64,000 nt of DNA, taken from contig JANXDU010000006.1 in NCBI GenBank assembly GCA_025059195.1, positions 62,001 through 126,000 of the forward strand, in the 5' to 3' direction. Made by a program: the position numbers and the translations under genes. Shown one piece after another: positions 11,709 to 54,350 of the stretch (its first letter is position 1; the number at the start of each line of letters is the position of its first letter). Source of the stretch: Candidatus Bathyarchaeota archaeon (GTDB lineage: Archaea; Thermoproteota; Bathyarchaeia; Bathyarchaeales; Bathycorpusculaceae). The notes beneath the pieces are model-generated. The model did not search any database, was not told the origin of the DNA, and saw nothing but the letters and a program-made list of their open reading frames with translations.

Positions 11709-12353
11709 TTATAACCCTTCCTTCACCTCGTTTCCCATAGCCTTCATTAAAAATTTAAAAACTGAAAAGCCTGCCCCGCGGTCTGCCCTAAACCCCGTGG
11801 TCGCTCCTAAAAGGCATACACCTTCTAAACCGCGCTCTTTAGCCATCCCGATTGTCAAGCCAGCAGCGCCAACAATCCTTCCTTTTCCATATAAAACGGC
11901 GCCTTTTTCCATAAATTCAACAGCCAGCCTCGGCGATGTTGCAGCGACATAAACGCGCCCAGCATCATCCACGGATGGAACACCGCCCAGGGTTATTATA
12001 AAGTTACAGCCGTAGCCTACTATGAAGTCGAGCACTTCGCCGCAAAGCTCGTAATGGGCTATGACATCCTCAAAAGAAGGTTGTGTGTCACCTGTCATTA
12101 TTATAAAATCGTTTTTATCCATAGGGGCGGCGTAAAACTCGTACTTGGGTAAACGGCAAATACCATCAGCGTTGACGGAAACGTAGTCCGGAAAGCATGG
12201 CGCATACATTTCAGCGAAGGGTTTGGCTCCGCAAAATTTTATTAGGAGATGGGCGGCAATTTTGCCCACGTTCCCAAAACCAGGCAACCCTTGAACAAAA
12301 ATGGGATTATCAAGCATTGGAGTGAAAATCTTACGGAAATACGGTTTGTCCAT
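11709..12353 (-). CDS. PAC2-family protein (proteasome assembly chaperone-like)
   Basis: 214 residues. PAC2 family signatures: NPIFVQGLPGFGNVGKIAAHLL at the N-terminus, then GDTQPSFEDVIAHYELCGEVL and IITLGGVP. Eukaryotic relatives help assemble the proteasome alpha ring; archaeal members are assumed to act similarly but this is unproven. The family also appears as ATP-grasp-linked proteins. Confidence 0.88.
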   Translation of the reverse strand: MDKPYFRKIFTPMLDNPIFVQGLPGFGNVGKIAAHLLIKFCGAKPFAEMYAPCFPDYVSVNADGICRLPKYEFYAAPMDKNDFIIMTGDTQPSFEDVIAHYELCGEVLDFIVGYGCNFIITLGGVPSVDDAGRVYVAATSPRLAVEFMEKGAVLYGKGRIVGAAGLTIGMAKERGLEGVCLLGATTGFRADRGAGFSVFKFLMKAMGNEVKEGL

Positions 12354-34006: not shown

Positions 34007-34124
34007 GCGGGGGTACCCGAGCCAGGTCTAAATAGGCCTTGGGAGCCAGACAAGCCTAAGACAAGGGGGAGGACTTAAGATCCTCTGGCGTAGGCCTCCG
34101 TGGGTTCAAATCCCACCCCCCGCA
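34007..34124 (+). tRNA. tRNA-Leu (TAA) with an apparent intron in the D loop
   Basis: Acceptor GCGGGGG/CCCCCGC, anticodon arm GAGGA-CTTAAGA-TCCTC (anticodon TAA at 34076-34078), long variable arm, T arm GTGGG-TTCAAAT-CCCAC, discriminator A, no CCA. The gene is 118 bases against about 85 for a normal class II tRNA-Leu. The excess of about 33 bases lies in the D loop (34019-34064), between the CCC (34016) and GGG (34065) of the D stem. GTCT/AGAC and TAGGC/GCCTA pair around an AAA bulge (34026-34062). A splicing endonuclease gene lies at 53793. Confidence 0.85.
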
Positions 34125-34155: not shown

Positions 34156-34485
34156 ATGGATGCCTCTGTTAAGCGTATAGCCAAGCAGCGTATTCAGAAG
34201 CTTTTCCGTTTAGCTATTAAAATTCATAAAGAAAACCAGCAGCTGGCTCAGCGTTATGTGGATATAGCCCGCCGTATAGCCATGGCAGCTAAGGTTCGCT
34301 TGCCAACTGAGTATAGGCGTTTAGTGTGCCGCCACTGCAAAAGCTTTATACTGCCCGGCGTTAGTTGTCGCGTGCGTATAAAACAGCGAAGGGAACCCCA
34401 CGTAGTTATAACATGCCTTAAATGTGGAGGGTATATTCGCATACCGCTGAGGAGGAAAGCGAATGAGCAGAAAAATAACTGCTAG
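34156..34485 (+). CDS. rnp4: RNase P protein component 4 (Rpr2/Rpp21)
   Basis: 109 residues. Helical N-terminus (AKQRIQKLFRLAIKIHKENQ...LAQRYVDIARRIA) and a zinc ribbon VCRHCKSFILPGVSCRVRI...VVITCLKCGGYIRIPL are diagnostic. Part of the archaeal RNase P that matures tRNA 5' ends. Its end overlaps the YhbY gene by 23 bases; both sit just after tRNA-Leu. Confidence 0.95.
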   Translation: MDASVKRIAKQRIQKLFRLAIKIHKENQQLAQRYVDIARRIAMAAKVRLPTEYRRLVCRHCKSFILPGVSCRVRIKQRREPHVVITCLKCGGYIRIPLRRKANEQKNNC

Positions 34486-34744
34486 AATGCGGTGCCGCTT
34501 AAAGAGGGAGTTTAGCAGCGAAAGCCCCACGATTTGGATCGGCAAAGGACAAGTATCAGTTGGACTCATTAAAGAAATCGAGAAGCAGTTGGATAAGAGG
34601 AAAATCGTCAAAGTTAAAATTTTAAAGACAGCCTTAAAAGAGGTAAAGGCCGCTGAGATAGCAGTGGAAATCTCTAAGCAAACAAAAGCCGAAATAGTTG
34701 ATGTTAGGGGGCACACGTTCATTCTTTATAAGCACAAAATTTAA
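34463..34744 (+). CDS. YhbY/CRM-domain RNA-binding protein
   Basis: 93 residues. The CRM fold is evident: RMRCRLKREFSSESPTIWIGKGQVS...LIKEIEKQLDKRKIVKVKIL and the final GHTFILYKHK strand. Relatives bind pre-ribosomal RNA. Overlaps rnp4 and is the typical archaeal neighbour of S19e. Confidence 0.92.
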   Translation: MSRKITARMRCRLKREFSSESPTIWIGKGQVSVGLIKEIEKQLDKRKIVKVKILKTALKEVKAAEIAVEISKQTKAEIVDVRGHTFILYKHKI

Positions 34745-53792: not shown

Positions 53793-54350
53793 ATGACGAG
53801 GAAGATACCAGTTGAATTCATAGAAAATTTTTTGGTCGTTTGGGATCCATCAGATGGTTCAGAACTCTATAAAATGGGCTTTTACGGTAAACCGTTAGGC
53901 ATCTCGAAACCCAAAATCCCAGAGTTTAATGTTCCATTAATTCTAGATTTAATGGAAGGCTTGTATCTTGCTGAAAAAGGAAAGATAACAGTGTATGAAG
54001 GAGTTAACAGGCAGAAAGTGACGTTGAAAAAACTCCGACAAAAAGCAAGAACACTGTATGAGGATTTCGATGAGAAATATGCAGTTTATCGAGACTTACG
54101 CGACAGAGGGATGGTGGTAACCCCGGGAATAAAGTTTGGATGTGATTTTGCAGTCTACAAACATGGGCCAGGATTGGAGCATGCACCCTACATGGTTTCT
54201 GTGAAGAGAGATTCTTCTGAATTAACAGCCACAGAAATTGTGAAAGCTGGTAGATTAGCAACCACTGTTCGAAAGAGGTTTATAGTTGCAGTGCCAAACT
54301 TGGAGAAAGGAAATATTAGATACCTTATATTCAAGTGGTTCAAGGCCTAA
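53793..54350 (+). CDS. endA: tRNA-splicing endonuclease
   Basis: 185 residues, a single-repeat archaeal EndA subunit. Catalytic triad candidates: Tyr in FGCDFAVYKHGP, His in LEHAPYMV and Lys in ATTVRKRFIVAV. Cuts introns at bulge-helix-bulge sites in tRNA and rRNA. This size acts as a homotetramer or, with a second subunit, a heterotetramer; the latter type tolerates introns outside the anticodon loop such as the one suspected in tRNA-Leu here. Confidence 0.93.
   Translation: MTRKIPVEFIENFLVVWDPSDGSELYKMGFYGKPLGISKPKIPEFNVPLILDLMEGLYLAEKGKITVYEGVNRQKVTLKKLRQKARTLYEDFDEKYAVYRDLRDRGMVVTPGIKFGCDFAVYKHGPGLEHAPYMVSVKRDSSELTATEIVKAGRLATTVRKRFIVAVPNLEKGNIRYLIFKWFKA

Follow-up and report, generated by a model that had tools for sequence, protein, structure and literature searches.

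A putative non-canonical intron in the D arm of tRNA-Leu(UAA), conserved across an order of Bathyarchaeia

The stretch of DNA analysed here (the window, 64,000 nucleotides in its full length) carries at positions 34007-34124 a tRNA-Leu(UAA) gene, anticodon TAA, which by sequence reading is interrupted in the D arm. The gene lies in an archaeal MAG of 1.37 Mb (92% complete, 36 contigs), on contig C7. Only its D loop is unusual: it is 46 nt long, 33 more than the expected 13, whereas the acceptor, anticodon, variable, and T arms have their normal form. Neither ARAGORN nor Rfam's tRNA model, the latter at its gathering score, detects the gene. The tmRNA model RF00023 matches here weakly, at 15.8 bits where its gathering score is 47; this is a below-threshold match to the tRNA-like part. 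The features of the gene, and of a splicing endonuclease gene in the same window, are as follows.

34007-34031, + strand: 5′ exon of tRNA-Leu(UAA), with the acceptor strand, the D-stem 5′ strand, and the D loop to A22; D arm identical to that of the intron-less gene of genome G044
34026-34029, + strand: central helix, exon strand GTCT (G19-U20b); from the MFE fold and the alignment of relatives
34030-34032, + strand: bulge AAA of the 5′ splice site, predicted cut after 34031; AAA in 88 of 92 distinct introns
34032-34064, + strand: putative 33-nt intron at tRNA position 22/23, ATAGGCCTTGGGAGCCAGACAAGCCTAAGACAA; ends from the intron-less orthologue G044 and the EndA cutting rule
34033-34037, + strand: inner (intron) helix, 5′ strand TAGGC; from the MFE fold and the alignment of relatives
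34045-34050, + strand: intron-loop motif GCCAGA, conserved in relatives with the consensus GG[C/U]CA[G/A]A (GGYCARA)
34054-34058, + strand: inner (intron) helix, 3′ strand GCCTA; from the MFE fold and the alignment of relatives
34059-34062, + strand: central helix, intron strand AGAC; exon-intron compensatory changes U-A to A-U and U-A to C-G
34063-34065, + strand: bulge or loop AAG of the 3′ splice site, predicted cut after 34064; from the alignment of relatives
34065-34124, + strand: 3′ exon, with the D-stem 3′ strand, anticodon arm (TAA), variable arm, T arm, acceptor strand, and discriminator A
53793-54350, + strand: catalytic (alpha-type) subunit of a tRNA splicing endonuclease, 185 aa, with Y122, H130, and K161 and a CSL-like K39-P40-K41

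Both helices are present in the MFE fold, where the cloverleaf is otherwise normal, and pair probabilities are about 0.7 for eight of the nine pairs. All nine pairs occurred in register in 11 of 200,000 shuffles of the 33 intron bases. The splice sites lie in the AAA and AAG that flank the 4-bp central helix GTCT/AGAC, the 3′ side being relaxed. Indeed, the 3′ side is a loop and no strict bulge, because the MFE fold also has a G23-C12 pair. The same fold has a 7 x 2 internal loop between the D stem and the central helix, and it contains no exon-side helix adjoining the 3′ bulge, such as belongs to the strict hBHBh′ motif. As modelled, the motif is a relaxed bulge-helix-bulge with a loop-type 3′ site. 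The first-pass annotation had described a tRNA-Leu(TAA) with normal arms and a 46-nt D loop, which the sequence confirms, and had paired GTCT with AGAC and TAGGC with GCCTA round an AAA bulge, which are exactly the helices of the MFE fold; its term "incomplete" for the bulge-helix-bulge is apt, since the internal loop makes the 3′ site non-strict.

EndA cuts between the second and third base of each bulge. Cuts are predicted after 34031 and 34064 because this rule puts them there, as does the comparison with G044, and position 22/23 was assigned with the D-loop numbering 18-19-20-20a-20b-21-22. The joined exons are predicted to read GGUCUAAGGGGG, with the junction GGUCUAA/GGGGGAGG in the RNA.

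G044 belongs to the same order and has the one intron-less gene found. It reads GAGCCAGGTCTAAGGGGGAGGACTTAAG, which is identical to the predicted joined exons letter for letter in the D arm, and it is a complete tRNA called by both Rfam (55 bits) and ARAGORN. Removal of 34032-34064 leaves a complete conventional tRNA of a predicted 85 nt, which differs from that of G044 at 3 of 84 positions, none of them in the D arm. Against this one intron-less gene stand at least 101 genomes of the same order with an intron at the same place, a count pooled over several D-arm-to-anticodon pattern searches of the order and the class. The order-wide gene reads GGTCTAA-[20 to 44 nt]-GGGGGAGGACTTAAG or a near variant, whereas G044 reads GGTCTAAGGGGGAGGACTTAAG with no insert. 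Intron lengths thus range from 20 to 44 nt across relatives, with fixed exon ends.

The pairing is kept across this variation. The four central pairs are retained in 82, 90, 92, and 92 of the 92 distinct introns, the outermost being G-A or G-G in 10 of the 92 sequences. In the same helix, an exon U has become A together with an intron A to U in three sequences, and six have C-G in place of U-A or U-G. Positions of the inner helix switch among G-C, C-G, U-A, and A-U. Pairing over its five pairs amounts to 419, compared with 370 ± 5 (maximum 386) when the 3′ arms were reassigned at random among the 92 distinct introns in 2000 rounds, a control that ignores kinship. Some members of the family have T-A instead of C-G at D-stem pair 10-25, which spans the intron. 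The earlier proposal of a non-canonical intron is supported by the order-wide orthologous intron, by an intron-less orthologue that equals the predicted product, and by this exon-intron covariation.

As far as can be judged from sequence, the insert is very probably a protein-spliced archaeal tRNA intron at the non-canonical site 22/23, in the sole tRNA-Leu(UAA) gene that was found. Before splicing, AGAC at the 3′ end of the intron would pair with G19-U-C-U of the D loop, and the intron helix would stack beyond the 3-nt AAA bulge. A two-subunit splicing endonuclease would then cut at GGUCUAA^AUAGG and GACAA^GGGGG, and RtcB would presumably join the exons to give the 85-nt tRNA with a normal D loop. 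A group I intron was considered and excluded. The cyanobacterial tRNA-Leu(UAA) group I intron is a self-splicing core in the anticodon loop; the present insert is 33 nt, lies in the D arm, and has no Rfam intron match.

The genome encodes the proteins for such a reaction. In addition to the catalytic EndA gene of the window, contig C33 carries a second EndA gene, in which Thr replaces the catalytic His, and an RtcB gene is present on contig C17. One catalytic subunit and one without the catalytic His are what an (αβ)2 enzyme comprises, and the two EndA proteins probably assemble in this way. The EndA of the window contains the Crenarchaea-specific loop Lys-Pro/Val-Lys/Arg, its K39-P40-K41 aligning over the K-P-R of the EndA chains 3p1z/3ajv. 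In Aeropyrum pernix, this K-P-R loop (K44-P45-R46) has been tied to the broad specificity of EndA (PMC12397907). The need for a broad-specificity endonuclease, anticipated in the first-pass annotation, is borne out by the two genes and by the CSL-type Lys-Pro-Lys of the window copy. The window EndA is homologous over nearly its full length to the Aeropyrum pernix-type (αβ)2 EndA (3p1z, 3ajv), the K-P-[KR] loop is shared, and the present genome likewise has two EndA genes; unlike the Aeropyrum pernix type, the second subunit here best matches the full-length homomeric 1a79. The gene for an RNase P protein (Rpr2/Rpp21 family, 34156-34485) begins 31 bases past the tRNA, so that three tRNA-processing items, the intron tRNA, the RNase P protein, and EndA, lie near each other in the window.

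It is very unlikely that the transcript goes unspliced and that the mature tRNA keeps the extra bases in an enlarged D loop. The insert does fold as a stable extension of the D arm; yet it varies from 20 to 44 nt and is little conserved except for the splice helices and one loop motif, and what is kept are the splice-site bulges and the exon-intron pairs. Moreover, the gene of G044 without the insert corresponds to the spliced form, and an enlarged loop would hold G19 in a helix, although the D-loop/T-loop contact normally requires this base.

The chance that the gene is a pseudogene or an assembly error, with another tRNA-Leu(UAA) doing the work, is extremely small. The incompleteness and fragmentation of the MAG and the presence of further tRNA pieces in it would fit such an origin; against it, the same structure recurs in about 100 other genomes, single-contig chromosomes included, and all tRNA arms are intact. 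A second tRNA-Leu(TAA), which the first-pass annotation had named as a finding that would tell against an intron, was looked for and not found in the 1.37 Mb, 92% complete assembly, the missing part of which could hold one. TTA is the commonest Leu codon in 15 ORFs of the window (148 of 666 Leu codons). With no other tRNA-Leu(TAA) found and TTA so frequent, a dead gene is unlikely: barring a copy in the missing portion of the genome, this one has to function.

The earlier reading saw in the direct repeats GAGCCAG and AGACAAG a hint of how the insert arose. That they produced it recently, within this genome, can be given almost no credence: both 7-nt repeats exist, but the AGACAAG pair is not general among relatives, GAGCCAG is largely a conserved loop motif (of the repeats, only the GCCAGA part is conserved, and it floats in position), and the order-wide distribution rules the idea out. 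Being order-wide, the intron is old, at least as old as the order. An older D-loop duplication is possible.

A scan of named genomes with the pattern gave 71 matches, nearly all of them under the label Candidatus Bathyarchaeota or Bathycorpusculum/Bathyarchaeum; a few are labelled only Crenarchaeota, Nitrososphaerota, or uncultured archaeon. Candidatus Bathyarchaeum tardum (JARVGH010000005.1) is among the named matches with the intron. Most tRNA-Leu(TAA) D loops elsewhere in the phylum are intron-less (GGTCAAAGG), and where genomes of the phylum beyond this class do carry a D-arm intron in this tRNA, it differs in sequence and in its site, which reads 21/22. Other introns occupy the same gene within the class. 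In families f10, f12, and f15 (L079, L080, L083-L086), tRNA-Leu(UAA) has three apparent introns, in the D arm near 15/16, in the anticodon stem near 31/32, and at 37/38. Families f11, f25, and f27 have an intron in the anticodon loop, in some cases accompanied by a stem intron, f19 and f23 have 21/22-like D-arm introns, and two f6 genomes combine the D-arm intron described here with an anticodon-loop intron. As different introns are found in the same gene across families of the class, tRNA-Leu(UAA) is a recurrent intron target. In one genome (L093, G018:C25:4745-4782), a second tRNA-Leu(TAA) 3′ half, from the anticodon loop on and without a 5′ half, accompanies an intact gene on C52; it is perhaps an integration remnant.

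Non-canonical introns of archaea have been described with the same BHB-type motif and the same EndA and ligase machinery, and they too are missed by ordinary tRNA finders (PMC4090602). Position 22/23 is already among the archaeal non-canonical tRNA intron positions listed there (PMC4090602; Sugahara et al. 2008 as cited there). The known cases come mainly from Crenarchaeota and Nanoarchaeota (PMC4090602), whereas here one old intron is common to a whole order of Bathyarchaeia. In Caldiarchaeum subterraneum, the same isoacceptor, tRNA-Leu(UAA), has multiple introns, and non-canonical introns, including D-arm ones, occur in its genome (PMC3293823). A literature search, with subscription journals outside its range, found no description of the present intron for Bathyarchaeota/Bathyarchaeia. 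What is new is the conserved loop motif and the Bathyarchaeia case; the kind of intron and the position are already known. The intron, non-canonical and order-wide, comes with a natural control that lacks it. Because ordinary tRNA finders miss the gene, archaea of this order may be annotated as lacking tRNA-Leu(UAA); intron-aware finders exist (PMC8450103).

Outside the splice helices, 58 of the 92 distinct introns contain GG[CT]CA[AG]A, where shuffled loops lead one to expect 0.65 (at most 4 in 500 shuffles); the count of 58 is inflated by kinship. With up to two extra bases allowed, the motif is found in 66 of 92 introns and in six of eight families; among the 92 scanned, it is absent from the introns of family f7. 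The loop round it varies freely, and its distance to either splice site varies widely. The motif resembles the usual Leu D loop GG[TC]CAAA of intron-less relatives and may be read in two ways, as a relic of a D-loop duplication or as a surrogate for G18-G19 while G19 sits in the central helix. With G19 locked in the splice helix, it may be this copy that docks on the T loop. It is conceivable, if doubtful, that the motif acts as a D-loop mimic in the intron (GGGAGCCAGA in the window precursor) and keeps the precursor tRNA-shaped for EndA, RNase P, or modification enzymes. In this regard, the conserved motif makes the function of the intron testable. Pairing of GCCAGA with TCTGGC of the 3′ exon, to which C/U variation opposite G would be suited, was considered and rejected: the TCTGAC subclade has GGCCAA in the intron with no compensating GUCAGA, and such pairing would also disrupt both the anticodon stem and the variable stem. 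The D-arm intron of a tRNA-Leu(UAA) from another class of the phylum (G309:C3:199-257) likewise has GGTCAGA in its loop.

Further tRNA loci of the genome may be mentioned. The tRNA-Arg(TCT) gene (L037:168-268; G000:C6, about 11806-11906, + strand) carries about 23 extra nt in its D loop, with TTGGA paired to TCCAA; it is missed by ARAGORN and matched only partially by Rfam, and the insert is likely a further non-canonical intron. Nine more tRNA genes are called with anticodon-region introns of 20-81 nt (L026, L027, L029, L030, L032-L036). On contig C4 (L190:84-115; G000:C4, about 34483-34514, − strand), a copy of about 30 bp of a tRNA-Leu 3′ end, as in Leu-TAG, is preceded by a 10-bp palindrome and small ORFs, one of them ribbon-helix-helix-like by eye; this looks like the attachment site of an integrated element. 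Finally, a degenerate tRNA-Val-like copy with repeated flanks lies beside tRNA-Val(GAC) (L009:120-200 and 500-575; G000:C24) and is a pseudogene from tandem duplication.
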